Positions 6,541-43,295 of a DNA stretch of 64,000 nucleotides are shown here, piece by piece. Positions within the stretch are counted from its first letter, which is position 1. Every line of letters begins with the position of its first letter. The stretch covers positions 62,001 through 126,000 of the forward strand of contig NZ_VJYB01000005.1 of NCBI RefSeq assembly GCF_030400225.1. The letters are read 5' to 3'. The position numbers and the translations under genes were made by a program. The notes below the pieces were generated by a model that was given only the letters and a program-made list of their open reading frames with translations, was not told the DNA's origin and searched no databases. The DNA comes from Lactobacillus sp. UCMA15818. Lineage in GTDB: Bacteria; Bacillota; Bacilli; Lactobacillales; Lactobacillaceae.

Positions 6541-7353
6541 TTACTTAGGATTTTTAGTAATATCCGAACCAAAATATTTCTTTGAAAGTTTCTGCAAAGT
6601 TCCATCATTTCTAAGTGTCTGCAATGCTTTGTTAATTCGTCCTTGTAGTTTTTTATTTTTCTTATTTAAGAGGGCTGAAATTTTAACTGGTTTAACCTGC
6701 TTTGATAAGTCCTTGAAGTGTAAGTCACTCACCTTATTACTCTTAGCATATGCATAATACGCTTCCGCCGCATTTATTGTTCCATTAACTCTGCCTTGGC
6801 GAATTAATGACAGACTTGTTGCAAAATCTCCCGAAGAAACAATCGTCGCTTTATATTTTTTTGCGAGGATTTCATTATTGGTCCCTGTTCCTTCTGCAAA
6901 TTTTTTATTCTTAACCTCTTTCAAGTTATTAATCTTATTTTTCTTTGAAGAAATTAGAGCATAGCGTGAATAGATATAAGGTTTAGAAAAAATATATACT
7001 TTTTTTCTTTCAGGAGTCTGTGTTATATTATTTAGCACTATATCGTACTTCGAAGCCCCTACTCCTGCAATTAGTGAATCCCACTTTGTTGGTACAAACT
7101 TGGCTTTTACTCCCATTTTTTTCGCAAGGGCTTTCCCTAAATCTACTTCAAACCCTGTTAGTTTTCCATCTGAGCGATATGAGTAAGGCTTATATGTTCC
7201 TTCTAACCCTATTGTTAATTGATCTTTATTTATTAAGTCATCTTTGTACGAAGATGCGTTAGCCTTCGTGGCTAGTCCTATAAAAATTCCAAAAGTAATT
7301 ATGATTGCTGCTATTAATACTTCTATTTTTAAAATAATTTTTTGTTCTCTCAT
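6541..7353 (-). CDS. amino-acid (probably cystine) ABC transporter substrate-binding protein
   Basis: Extracytoplasmic solute receptor of 270 residues, family 3. After an N-terminal hydrophobic segment (residues 10-28) the mature domain starts near LTIGLEGTYKPYSY and contains GFEVDLGKALAKKMG and the WDSLIAGVGASKYDIVLNNITQTPERK region typical of cystine/polar amino-acid binders. There is no lipobox cysteine: the cleavage region reads ATKANA-SS, suggesting an uncleaved anchor or type I signal peptide instead of a lipoprotein. ATG follows GGGGGAT at 7 nt. It is third in the permease-ATPase-receptor operon. Cystine specificity is inferred from family resemblance and from the cysteine codons in the leader peptide. 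Confidence 0.83.
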   Translation of the reverse strand: MREQKIILKIEVLIAAIIITFGIFIGLATKANASSYKDDLINKDQLTIGLEGTYKPYSYRSDGKLTGFEVDLGKALAKKMGVKAKFVPTKWDSLIAGVGASKYDIVLNNITQTPERKKVYIFSKPYIYSRYALISSKKNKINNLKEVKNKKFAEGTGTNNEILAKKYKATIVSSGDFATSLSLIRQGRVNGTINAAEAYYAYAKSNKVSDLHFKDLSKQVKPVKISALLNKKNKKLQGRINKALQTLRNDGTLQKLSKKYFGSDITKNPK

Positions 7354-7378: not shown

Positions 7379-8116
7379 TTATTTTAATACCATAGATGAC
7401 AGAAATTTCGTAATTCTCAAATTTTTATTGTTTTTGAAAAAAGGATCAGGTTTCCCATCATAAATAATATTTCCATCTTCTACAAATACTATTTTGTCGG
7501 CTACTTGTTGTGCAAACGACATATTATGTGTAACAATCACCATTGATTGCCCATCTTTTGCAAGTTGCAAAAGGACCTGTAAAACCTCAAGTTCTAATTC
7601 GGGATCTAATGCAGAAGTAGGTTCATCAAGTAAAATATACTCTGGATTCATGGCTAAAGAGCGTGCAATTGCTACTCTTTGTGCCTGACCACCCGAAAGT
7701 TCTTCTGGATAATTATCAATTTTAGATTCCAATCCAATTTTTTTTAATATTTTTTTTGCATTTTTAATCGCTGTTTCTTTATCGAGCTTTAACACCTGAG
7801 TAGGTCCTTCAATTATATTGCCAAGAACTGAAAAATGAGGAAATAGATTATAACTTTGAAATACCATCCCTGTTTTCCGTCGTACGTAAGATAATTCTTT
7901 TTTATCAATCCCCTTTGTAAAGTCAATTATCAAATCATCAAACAAATACTTCCCCCTCTCTGGTGTTTCTAATAAATTCAACGAACGTAAAATTGTTGAT
8001 TTTCCAGAACCGGATGGTCCTACTAAAACAGTAACCTTTTTCTTTGGGAACTCTAGATTAATATTCTTTAAAACAAGGTGATTACCATATGATTTATTAA
8101 TTTCTCTCAACTCCAT
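7379..8116 (-). CDS. amino-acid ABC transporter ATP-binding protein
   Basis: ATPase of 245 residues that powers the adjacent permease. Walker A GPSGSGKST, Q-loop region VFQSYNLFPHFSV, signature LSGGQAQRVAIARSLA, Walker B YILLDEPTSALDPE and H-switch VTHNMSFA are all present and intact. An in-frame TTG precedes the chosen ATG by one codon; AAGGAGGTGG upstream favours the ATG at 8116. The gene overlaps the 3' end of the permease by 20 nt, showing tight coupling. It belongs to the polar amino-acid (GlnQ/TcyC/TcyN) subfamily. Confidence 0.9.
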   Translation of the reverse strand: MELREINKSYGNHLVLKNINLEFPKKKVTVLVGPSGSGKSTILRSLNLLETPERGKYLFDDLIIDFTKGIDKKELSYVRRKTGMVFQSYNLFPHFSVLGNIIEGPTQVLKLDKETAIKNAKKILKKIGLESKIDNYPEELSGGQAQRVAIARSLAMNPEYILLDEPTSALDPELELEVLQVLLQLAKDGQSMVIVTHNMSFAQQVADKIVFVEDGNIIYDGKPDPFFKNNKNLRITKFLSSMVLK

Positions 8117-8828
8117 CAATTACCACCTCCTTTTTTGACCTATTAGCCTTTACACCAAGCTTATCTTCTAGCTTACCTTGCCCCCAAGAAAGAATCGTAC
8201 AAAAGACAGCATAAACTGCGGCTACCAAGGAATACATTAATAATGGCTGGTAATTTTCTGCGGCTATCTGTTGACTTACTTCAAACATTTCAACAATAGT
8301 AATTGAAGCCGCTAGAGATGTGTCCTTAACCAAACTAATGAAACTATTTGCCAGCGGTGGCACAGATACTCTCAGTGCTTGTGGTAATATAATTCTTTTC
8401 AGAGTCTGATTTCTCGTCATTCCGATTGAAAATGCAGCTTCCCATTGTCCTTTAGGCACTGAACTAATTGCCGCTCTAATTGTTTCAGATGCATAAGCAC
8501 CCGTATTAAGCGAGAAAGTTATTATTCCTGCAATAAAGGCATCGAGCTTTATTCCTTCTGGAGCCATTCCTTTTATTTTTAAATATGGTAATCCAAAATA
8601 AACTATGAATAGTTGTACTAATAGTGGTGTGGAACGAAATAACCAAACATAAAATCTAAAAAATAATTTTACTACCAAAAAGAATCCTTTTCTGCTAGAT
8701 AATCTAATTAATGCTGTAAAAAGTGCCAATATTATTCCTAGAAAAAAAGAAATAAGTGTTAACGGAACAGTATACTTAAAACCAGCCTCTAAAATTTGAG
8801 GCAAAGCTTTGCTGATAATTTCCCACAT
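8097..8828 (-). CDS. amino-acid ABC transporter permease
   Basis: Inner-membrane permease of 243 residues, HisM/TcyB type. About five hydrophobic helices are visible, with the RSTPLLVQLFIVYFG segment and an EAA loop around SIGMTRNQTLKRIILPQALR that docks on the ATPase. The start ATG has AGGAGG nearby. It is the first full-length gene of the transporter operon, about 35 nt downstream of the attenuator terminator, so its expression depends on read-through. Confidence 0.9.
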   Translation of the reverse strand: MWEIISKALPQILEAGFKYTVPLTLISFFLGIILALFTALIRLSSRKGFFLVVKLFFRFYVWLFRSTPLLVQLFIVYFGLPYLKIKGMAPEGIKLDAFIAGIITFSLNTGAYASETIRAAISSVPKGQWEAAFSIGMTRNQTLKRIILPQALRVSVPPLANSFISLVKDTSLAASITIVEMFEVSQQIAAENYQPLLMYSLVAAVYAVFCTILSWGQGKLEDKLGVKANRSKKEVVIDGVERN

Positions 8829-8862
8829 CTAAATTTCCTCCTAATGTATGTAAAAGTACAAA

Positions 8863-8896
8863 TAAAAAAACGAAATCTTAAAATAAAAGATTTCGT
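8863..8896 (-). terminator. attenuator terminator ahead of the cystine-type ABC operon
   Basis: On the minus strand ACGAAATCTT and AAGATTTCGT form a perfect 10-bp stem with a TTATTTT loop, followed by seven T residues. It lies between the leader peptide and the permease start, exactly where a transcription attenuator would be. Confidence 0.85.
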
Positions 8897-8928
8897 CTCA
8901 TCCGTTCCATTTTTTAGCTGGAAAAATA

Positions 8929-9006
8929 TCATGCCAAAATAGTGGATCGTCTAAGACCTAATCCACAAGGACACATATATTGAATTTTGGATTTCAATAT
9001 GTTCAT
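8929..9006 (-). CDS. 25-residue cysteine-containing leader peptide
   Basis: Small ORF with ATG at 9006, preceded by GAGGAAAATAAA as ribosome binding site, and TGA at 8929-8931. The peptide contains a Cys-Pro-Cys-Gly motif (MCPCGLGLRRS in its middle). The mRNA of the same region folds: ATATTGAA/TTCAATAT forms one hairpin early in the ORF, and GTGGAT/ATCCAC forms a second that begins at the second Cys codon. A terminator hairpin follows 32 nt after the stop. The arrangement suggests ribosome-mediated attenuation in which stalling at the Cys codons when Cys-tRNA is scarce alters folding and allows transcription of the transporter. I know of no named element matching it. Confidence 0.7.
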   Translation of the reverse strand: MNILKSKIQYMCPCGLGLRRSTILA

Positions 9007-9045
9007 TTTATTTTCCTCACTAAAAACTAATTGTATTATTATTTT

Positions 9046-9074
9046 ATGCTAACTGATTTAACAAAGAAAGTCAA
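9046..9074 (-). promoter_or_regulatory. promoter of the leader peptide/ABC operon
   Basis: Minus-strand -35 TTGACT (9069-9074) and -10 TAGCAT (9046-9051) are 17 bp apart, about 40 nt ahead of the leader ATG. Confidence 0.6.
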
Positions 9075-9099
9075 CACCTTTAATAATTAAAAACTGATA

Positions 9100-9219
9100 T
9101 TAAATAAGATTGCTCTTTTTCTTATCCAAGGCTGCCATCTTCTTTTGAATTTTTATGAATTGCTTCTTGACGCTACTTTCATTCAGTATTTCATCTAGCT
9201 TTTTCAAGAAATCTTCCAT
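9100..9219 (-). pseudogene. fragment resembling the tail of a recombinase gene
   Basis: A 39-codon open stretch with lysine-rich helical sequence (IQKKMAALDKKKSNL) like the C-terminal coiled coil of large serine recombinases, ended by TAA. In-frame codons upstream of the ATG (AHGYWCSGNKD) also read open for a short distance, so the ATG need not be a real start. It stands next to the KTR remnant, which commonly accompanies integrative conjugative elements. The family assignment is tentative. Confidence 0.3.
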
Positions 9220-27168: not shown

Positions 27169-27186
27169 CACTAAATAACAGCTTTT

Positions 27187-27256
27187 TTACTTATAGTCTA
27201 AGATTTTCGGTCCTAGGTAGAAACTCGTCAACCATATTATGACATTATATAAGCAA
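27187..27256 (-). promoter_or_regulatory. purine riboswitch aptamer, guanine/xanthine class
   Basis: The minus strand shows the family's conserved core: ATATGG, GTTTCTACC, then CCG and GACTATAAG. The P1 stem is TTGCTTAT/ATAAGTAA. The specificity base is C (GACTAT, not GATTAT), which indicates guanine, hypoxanthine or xanthine rather than adenine. The linked xpt-pbuX genes agree. Confidence 0.92.
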
Positions 27257-27267
27257 TATCTTATTGA

Positions 27268-27296
27268 AGATTAACATATGAAAATCTATTTTTCAA
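27268..27296 (-). promoter_or_regulatory. promoter of the xpt-pbuX operon
   Basis: -35 TTGAAA (27291-27296), 17-bp spacer, -10 TAATCT (27268-27273). Transcription would begin just ahead of the riboswitch P1 stem. The -35 box touches the 3' end of the glucosaminidase gene. Confidence 0.6.
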
Positions 27297-34367: not shown

Positions 34368-34640
34368 AAAAAAAGACTCATCCCTTGTATGTAAGGACGA
34401 GTCTCGTGTTACCACCTTGATTTGTGCTATCTTCATAGATAACACCTCCACAGCTAAAAACATGTAATTTAGCATGTGTCAATAACGTGCACAAATCCGT
34501 TGCTAGCTCACAAGTTGCTAAGCACCATTCCAAGCTCATTTTCTATGCATTCATTTACTCTCTCACACCAACTGAGAGCTCTCTCAAAAATTTACACATA
34601 TACTCTACTTTTCATTATGTTATTCATTTTAATGTTCACA
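34368..34640 (-). promoter_or_regulatory. T-box leader
   Basis: The T-box core AAGGTGGTAACACGAG (34405-34420) is followed by a strong terminator (GACTCGTCCTT/AAGGGATGAGTC, 34375-34403, then eight T). Upstream, Stem I features can be read: AGTAGAG and the distal CTCTCAGTTGGTGTGAGAG. The specifier triplet is not certain; ATG (Met) in the context GAAAATGAG is one candidate, which would fit methionine salvage. Uncharged tRNA would pair with the TGGT bulge and allow expression of the hydrolase and aminotransferase. Confidence 0.88.
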
Positions 34641-43212: not shown

Positions 43213-43237
43213 GTTTATTTCCTCCATTTGTATATGC

Positions 43238-43284
43238 TTGTTTGACACAAAATAAGTTTCCGGGGCCTACCGTGGGGCAAACAA
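43238..43284 (-). promoter_or_regulatory. ribosomal L13 leader-like structure
   Basis: TTGTTTG (43278-43284 on the minus strand) pairs with CAAACAA (43238-43244), enclosing a GC-rich CCCCACGGTAGGCCCCGG segment. It begins at the predicted transcription start and precedes rplM, as the autoregulatory L13 leader of Firmicutes does. Confidence 0.6.
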
Positions 43285-43295
43285 TACCAAATATT

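Follow-up and report, generated by a model that had tools for sequence, protein, structure and literature searches.

A cysteine-codon leader with a predicted transcription attenuator before a cystine-type operon of Lactobacillus sp. UCMA15818, and its relatives in Lactobacillales

Teaching usually presents attenuation by leader peptides as a Gram-negative mechanism, the trp, his, leu and phe leaders being the classical attenuators of Proteobacteria, and assigns the same job in lactic acid bacteria to T-boxes, which bind tRNA directly and without translation. Our study concerns a 25-codon open reading frame (ORF) containing Cys codons, together with a predicted attenuator, in front of a cystine-type ATP-binding cassette (ABC) transporter operon of Lactobacillus sp. 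UCMA15818; the locus lies in a stretch of 64 000 nucleotides (contig NZ_VJYB01000005.1, positions 62 001 to 126 000), hereafter the window, in whose own coordinates it is described. In Actinobacteria, short ORFs with runs of Cys codons precede cys operons and Bifidobacterium longum cbs, and for the Mycobacterium leaders the authors, in the part of the paper available to us, saw no conserved terminator hairpins and suggested Rho (PMC1262725). The Cys-codon ORF is alike in the family described here, which instead has an intrinsic terminator and a covarying antiterminator. In Rhodobacterales, uORFC-8-2 upstream of cysS has two tandem Cys codons and a terminator stem, and ribosome-mediated attenuation was proposed for it (PMC8632094); it differs from the window family in being placed before cysS and, as far as the accessible text goes, in being restricted to Alphaproteobacteria. 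Among Firmicutes, a His leader of hisS paralogues replaces T-boxes in bacilli (PMC2965389) and Staphylococcus aureus has a leucine leader (PMC5794164), which are likewise Gram-positive leader-peptide attenuators, but for other amino acids and genes. No description of Cys leader peptides in Lactobacillales was found in an open-access library, subscription papers being mostly not covered. Because Cys leaders are known in Actinobacteria and Rhodobacterales, and other leader peptides in Firmicutes, the Lactobacillales leaders are regarded here as a new family of an already known mechanism.

All parts of the window element lie on the reverse strand. The leader ORF (8929–9006) starts with ATG, encodes MNILKSKIQYMCPCGLGLRRSTILA and was supported by homologous leaders and their alignment as well as by the ORF call; a Shine–Dalgarno sequence, GAGGA (9014–9018), precedes it, and TGT codons for Cys stand at positions 12 (8971–8973) and 14 (8965–8967). 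Two hairpins overlap the ORF, namely a small one in its 5' half (ATATTGAAAT...ATTCAATAT, 8977–9000), seen upon folding, and hairpin 1:2 (GTGGAT...ATCCAC, 8942–8966), which opens within Cys codon 14 and whose homologue covaries in 29 leaders. Segment 2 (8942–8964) forms the 5' strand of the predicted antiterminator, as indicated by the energy of the 2:3 duplex and by covariation, and segment 3 (8887–8910), identified by the pairing test, forms its 3' strand and shares bases with the terminator's 5' arm. Between the two segments, the minimum free energy fold contains an apical extension (TTTTGGC/GCTAAAA, 8912–8939) that is kept in the genus and holds the leader stop codon in its loop. The intrinsic terminator (3:4, 8867–8899), found by terminator scan and by folding, spans 33 bases with 13 pairs, 3 of them G-C, and is followed by a U-rich tail to approximately 8860; 38 bases separate it from the permease start codon. 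The ribosome binding site, the ORF with Cys-Pro-Cys, the two overlapping hairpins and the terminator had all been pointed out in an initial annotation made from the sequence alone, and each was recovered at these positions. The window thus holds a Shine–Dalgarno-led ORF with Cys codons, an intrinsic terminator and a cystine-type operon downstream, and an antiterminator that excludes the terminator and begins beside the control codons was found both here and in the aligned class of leaders. With the trp, his, leu and phe leaders the element shares the short ORF with codons for the sensed amino acid, the mutually exclusive 1:2, 2:3 and 3:4 helices, the intrinsic terminator and the operon for synthesis or uptake; it is unlike them in being probably keyed to cysteine, in occurring in Lactobacillales and in having no Rfam match at the gathering score.

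No Rfam family was detected in the window leader at gathering score; the initial annotation, too, had been aware of no named family to match it. Sub-threshold matches had E values of 0.34–4.7, Phe_leader (RF01859) scored 15.5 bits compared to a gathering cut-off of 55, and the T-box (RF00230), which likewise senses tRNA charging, had no match at 8800–9120.

Taken together, the element is very probably a transcription attenuator in which a translating ribosome reads the supply of charged tRNA-Cys. The parts themselves, their conservation and covariation and the gene context can be read directly from sequence; for the window locus we infer translation of the leader, stalling, read-through and a response to cysteine. 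Transcription would begin near 9040 and a ribosome would enter the 25-codon ORF. When Cys-tRNA is scarce, the ribosome would stall at Cys12 or Cys14 and prevent hairpin 1:2, so that segment 2 could pair with segment 3, which would occupy the terminator's base; the cystine operon would then be transcribed. When Cys-tRNA is ample, the ribosome would pass on and either cover part of segment 2 while heading for the stop codon or leave 1:2 to form behind it, and terminator 3:4 would stop transcription before the permease gene.

The fold of the window leader was better than those of all 200 dinucleotide shuffles (z −3.9), and the 2:3 duplex reached −20.7 kcal/mol compared to a shuffle mean of −10.3, with none of 300 shuffles as good. 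The 2:3 value bears on the possibility that the window copy is inactive, its terminator ending another transcript and its ORF unused, a reading under which the family could still be real at other loci. The Cys-Pro-Cys of the window peptide, where most aligned relatives have Cys-Cys-Cys, and the A+T-rich terminator stem of −13.0 kcal/mol would be in keeping with this. However, every part is retained in the window and its relatives, including both flanking Cys codons, and together with the 2:3 pairing this makes an inactive element highly unlikely.

Conservation was examined at loci with homologous permeases. Among 14 genomes of the genus, the whole leader was found at 86–88 % identity in three besides its own, and the closest permease matches among named genomes were two Liquorilactobacillus mali records (93 and 91 % identity). 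Upstream regions, taken up to 500 bases from the operon start, were scored for a Shine–Dalgarno-led ORF of 10–50 codons with two Cys codons no more than 3 positions apart. Such an ORF was present at 22 of 80 homologous permease loci, whereas the opposite strand gave 0 and shuffles 3.2. We judge 19 of the 22 to be real: two in L. mali, one each in Ligilactobacillus ubinensis, Ligilactobacillus salivarius, Ligilactobacillus agilis, Liquorilactobacillus ghanensis, Liquorilactobacillus oeni, Liquorilactobacillus satsumensis, Lactobacillus delbrueckii, Lactobacillus sp. UBA5815 and Philodulcilactobacillus myokoensis, and eight in Limosilactobacillus. The remaining three (L057, L075 and L096) have GTG or TTG starts and no terminator was found for them, and they were set aside as chance. 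Three accepted leaders (L039, L050 and L063) miss the stricter terminator rule, although L039 passes a looser one. In several Limosilactobacillus, a gene of approximately 380 codons stands between leader and permease; in L042 its best models are cystathionine gamma-synthase/lyase, below their cut-offs. The GLGLRRS core, for which the initial annotation had suggested a search, is not the signature of these leaders: its exact back-translated pattern occurred in 2 of 397 family genomes (the source genome and L002 in genome G232).

In Limosilactobacillus coleohominis (L035), approximately 171 bases before the operon start, a stop codon follows directly upon Cys-Cys-Cys where relatives have Gly; this leader keeps its Cys codons and the pairing despite the early stop and was retained in the permease-side counts.

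The leaders are not confined to cystine transport, to which the initial annotation had tied them. A protein search with cysK2 found homologues in 49 of 201 Lactobacillaceae genomes (E ≤1e-80; 13 of 40 genera) and in 54 of 295 genomes across the order (24 of 75 genera); with nine genomes common to both searches, 94 regions upstream of cysK2-type (cysteine-synthase-family) genes were scored. A Cys-clustered ORF was present in 82 of them automatically and in 83 after stretch L208 had been re-cut; the opposite strand had 1 of 94, and five shuffle rounds a mean of 3.6. Adjacent Cys-Cys was found in 82 of the 94, compared to 1.8, and the amino acids that came next, Asn and Ser, reached 23. Because the ORFs that were aligned had been chosen for clustered Cys, it is this enrichment upstream of genes that supports the Cys codons independently. 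The source genome itself has a second Cys leader, MGVFNFKKTNNACCCLIPRVSVDEMAALSWNLFVG, before a cysK2 homologue and a lyase-type gene, and a Limosilactobacillus fermentum plasmid carries another, MTNVFTKQAVCCCGARQLRGSTLWRSLKRG; none was found in one Priestia plasmid examined. In Enterococcus faecalis (L188, 2774–2911), the Cys-codon leader ORF coincides with an annotated hypothetical protein of 45 residues, WP_002355203.1, which suggests that this protein is a leader peptide.

A profile of 24 leader peptides matched 33 of 201 family genomes. Matches stood before cystathionine-lyase-type genes alone in G128, G195, G075 and G102 (one gene scanned), and in G104 the leader precedes a lyase-type gene, a permease and an ATPase. 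Among the weak matches (E 0.0007–0.006), those in G128, G195 and G075 were judged real and those in G123, G127 and G059 look like chance. The window leader is a member of a Lactobacillales Cys-leader family that also precedes cysteine-synthase-family and cystathionine-lyase-type genes. A further weak match, in G186, has a stop inside it and precedes a gene that scores best against OppA, below the cut-off; this stretch (L276, G186:C32:4600-7500) is a possible peptide-uptake member of the family. Its frame, MCCCCTLRLARCSAC, has no clear Shine–Dalgarno site and lies approximately 170 bases before the OppA-like gene. For the leader in L273 (G045), the next listed gene begins 1.2 kb past it.

The anatomy of the window leader recurs on both sides of the family. 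Behind the ORF, 80 of 83 cysK2-side leaders have a terminator of −12 kcal/mol or better, compared to 6 of 166 shuffles. On the permease side, where the leaders counted include that of the window and one relative from its genus, such a terminator is present in 18 of 24, compared to 0 of 48 shuffles. For helix 2:3, the pairing between the terminator's 5' side and the 50 bases that follow the Cys codons was compared to shuffles (p<0.05), leaving out L005 and L007, and was significant in 62 of 82 cysK2-side and 14 of 18 permease-side leaders, that of the window among them. Segment 2 starts a median of 6 bases past the last Cys codon on the cysK2 side and 0 bases past it on the permease side. By leader family, 2:3 was significant in 44 of 47 f1, 7 of 7 f2, 9 of 10 f7, 2 of 15 f3 and 0 of 3 f9 leaders; under the rule of the pairing test, no terminator follows the single f8 leader.

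Covariation was analysed in the 29 distinct leaders among 31 chosen by peptide pattern from 100 leaders with a terminator. Canonical pairs made up 87.4 % (1:2), 93.9 % (2:3) and 90.7 % (3:4) of positions in the 29 leaders, and fell to 25–47, 31–54 and 34–50 %, respectively, when the helices were slid by 1–3 columns; double-sided changes were seen in 4 of 9, 7 of 9 and 13 of 15 pairs. The enrichment of Cys ORFs at homologous loci and these three covarying alternative helices support the proposal of the initial annotation that a Cys-codon leader is coupled to attenuation. It had named an unconserved ORF or unconserved Cys codons with freely varying hairpins as what would speak against it; the Cys ORFs proved to be enriched and the helices to covary instead.

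The alignment of 24 peptides, in which, the ORFs having been chosen for clustered Cys, only the two outer Cys columns (window Cys12 and Cys14, Cys in 24 of 24) are invariant and M1 nearly so, also bears on whether the peptide rather than its codons is read. The absence of other conserved residues is informative here. In an arrest-peptide mechanism, the nascent chain, for example an RLRR-like stretch, would itself halt translation when a small molecule such as cysteine, cystine or a drug is present, and not because tRNA-Cys is empty. An Arg-Leu-Arg motif in leader peptides has been linked to drug-induced stalling, in the accessible text of that report (PMC8632094), and RLxR follows the Cys codons in many of the leaders studied here. 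However, the 24 peptides show no conservation ahead of the Cys codons, in the residues that would line the exit tunnel, RLxR is missing from many other leaders, and where it occurs its codons are segment 2 of the covarying helix. We therefore consider an arrest peptide very unlikely and attenuation through tRNA-Cys the better account of the leaders.

The cysK2 side of the family includes an operon whose response to cysteine has been reported. In Lacticaseibacillus paracasei, cysK2-ctl1-cysE2 is raised without cysteine, has no T-box, and shows high read coverage of its 5' untranslated region and a predicted terminator; upstream lies a palindrome, AAGGGCGCGAAA-N16-TTTCGCGCCCTT, resembling a palindromic motif of Liu et al. 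2012 (PMC6004538, 2018). Its authors proposed premature termination, and the parts of the report available to us identify no sensor. A search for the palindrome with a spacer of N8–22 gave 1 of 301 family genomes, in which MMSQSMFNAINCCCRATRFWRCSAC with a Shine–Dalgarno sequence lies upstream, while a cysteine-synthase-family gene and a second pyridoxal 5'-phosphate (PLP)-enzyme gene lie downstream. On plasmids pLC2W (L. paracasei) and pLC1 (Lacticaseibacillus rhamnosus Lc 705), the exact palindrome comes directly after a Cys-Cys-Cys leader, and pLBCZ-1 (Lacticaseibacillus casei) has a leader with a variant palindrome; downstream in pLC2W are genes of the cysteine-synthase family, a PLP enzyme and a serine O-acetyltransferase. 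The reported palindrome in pLC2W and pLC1 is the terminator of the predicted Cys attenuator.

A DNA operator for an unnamed regulator, with the ORF there by chance, would fit the palindrome of Liu et al. 2012 read as a motif, as it is told in the accessible part of PMC6004538. It is contradicted by the palindromes themselves, which vary in sequence while their pairing covaries (the double changes in 13 of 15 pairs given above), have U-runs behind them on the coding strand and, in 83 of 94 cases, a Cys-codon ORF ahead of them. An operator is thus very improbable, compared to a terminator within an attenuator.

The switch was also modelled in 13 leaders by equilibrium folding with the nucleotides under the ribosome kept from pairing. 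For the full-length window leader, p(2:3) and p(3:4) were 0.21 and 0.84 with no ribosome, 0.55 and 0.63 with the ribosomal A-site at Cys12, 0.40 and 0.77 with it at Cys14, and 0.00 and 0.97 with the ribosome at the stop codon. In full folds of 12 of the 13 leaders, p(2:3) was greater, often slightly, when the ribosome stalled at one or another Cys codon than when it stood at the stop; L145 showed no gain.

Several results weigh against the attenuator interpretation and its extension to the family. When the window transcript ends before the 3' arm of the terminator, p(2:3) is 0.64 with no ribosome, 0.59 at Cys12, 0.43 at Cys14 and 0.45 at the stop. Because the last value stays at 0.45, the model does not support the blocking of 2:3 by a ribosome at the stop codon, which somewhat weakens the case for the attenuator and for the wider regulon. 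Transcripts shortened in this way separate the ribosome states poorly: in L042 and L032, the p(2:3) obtained at the first Cys was the same as that at the stop codon (0.74 and 0.81, respectively). Ribosome position also hardly shifts the terminator of L042, L154 and L145 in full folds; this simple model reproduces the switch only in part. No accepted leader was present at 61 of 80 permease homologues, and 11 of 94 cysK2-type upstream regions (L155, L157, L191, L207, L214, L222, L234, L238, L240, L241 and L242) had neither an ORF nor an Rfam match at E ≤0.01. The 2:3 pairing was non-significant in 20 of 82 cysK2-side leaders, including 13 of 15 f3 (Enterococcus-type) and 3 of 3 f9 leaders, and in the permease-side leaders L036, L041, L046 and L059 (p 0.05). 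A single row (L166) served to define the helices, which somewhat favours them over their slid versions, and the leaders are kin, so that p-values are not independent. For L. paracasei, antisense RNA was also found, and RNase III fragmentation may enrich structured leaders (PMC6004538, in the part available).

On balance, we consider it probable that Lactobacillales possess a fast-diverging regulon of Cys-leader attenuators over cystine uptake, cysteine-synthase-family, cystathionine-lyase-type and perhaps oligopeptide uptake genes, that stands in the place of the T-boxes of relatives at some of these, travels with plasmid-borne cysK-ctl-cysE and constitutes the missing cysteine control of L. 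paracasei cysK2-ctl1-cysE2. The cysK-ctl-cysE cluster has been reported as mobile (PMC6200037). A Gram-positive order appears to use leader-peptide attenuation widely for cysteine, a concrete mechanism is offered for the cysteine response of cysK2-ctl1-cysE2 in dairy Lacticaseibacillus, and a reported palindromic regulatory motif is reread as a terminator.

T-boxes in such a place were seen in four Liquorilactobacillus species. Liquorilactobacillus uvarum, Liquorilactobacillus sucicola, Liquorilactobacillus aquaticus and Liquorilactobacillus capillatus have a T-box by Rfam (L025 1497–1731, L028 1496–1731, L030 1461–1695 and L031 1489–1722) instead of a Cys leader before an operon with a homologous permease. 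The specifier position in L025 and L028, which we take from the Rfam alignment and the general anatomy of T-boxes, presumably reads ATG (Met). That T-boxes are common in lactobacilli, as the initial annotation had remarked, is evident from the source genome, which has 33 T-box matches at E ≤0.001, 12 of them over the cut-off, as well as Cys-codon leaders. By eye, the first gene of the L028 T-box operon resembles cystathionine gamma-synthase/lyase-type enzymes, and a T-box of the source genome (L113) precedes a gene that resembles it.

The genes that follow the window leader, all on the reverse strand, begin with an ABC transporter permease of cystine type (8097–8828), which has its own Shine–Dalgarno sequence, AGGAGG (8837–8842), and continue with an ATP-binding protein (7379–8119) and a substrate-binding protein (6541–7353). 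Their best NCBIfam models are PRK15100 (cystine permease), TcyN and PRK11260 (cystine-binding), respectively; all three are models of cystine transport and all scores are under the curated (equivalog) cut-offs, so that the cystine-type assignment of the initial annotation is upheld with that qualification. The promoter it had proposed fared less evenly. A putative −35 element, TTGACT (9069–9074), and a putative −10 element, TAGCAT (9046–9051; TAACAT in relatives), came from the promoter scan and genus alignment, and the spaced form TTGACT-17-TA(G/A)CAT is kept in the genus; the −35 element is weak alone, the whole matches the consensus at 9 of 12 positions, and promoter-like sites in the scan were no commoner than in shuffles (20 compared to 19.4).

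Upstream of the leader and on the same strand lies a 39-codon ORF (9100–9219) with no Pfam match. Elsewhere in the window, also on the reverse strand, a T-box leader (34390–34624, 101.6 bits) precedes the gene of a 262-residue protein starting MKKFKASLLQLDITFGNPEANYINVEKYIRKAVLSKPDVLVLPEM, and a Purine riboswitch (27174–27272) and a ribosomal protein L13 leader (43231–43288) are both over their Rfam cut-offs.
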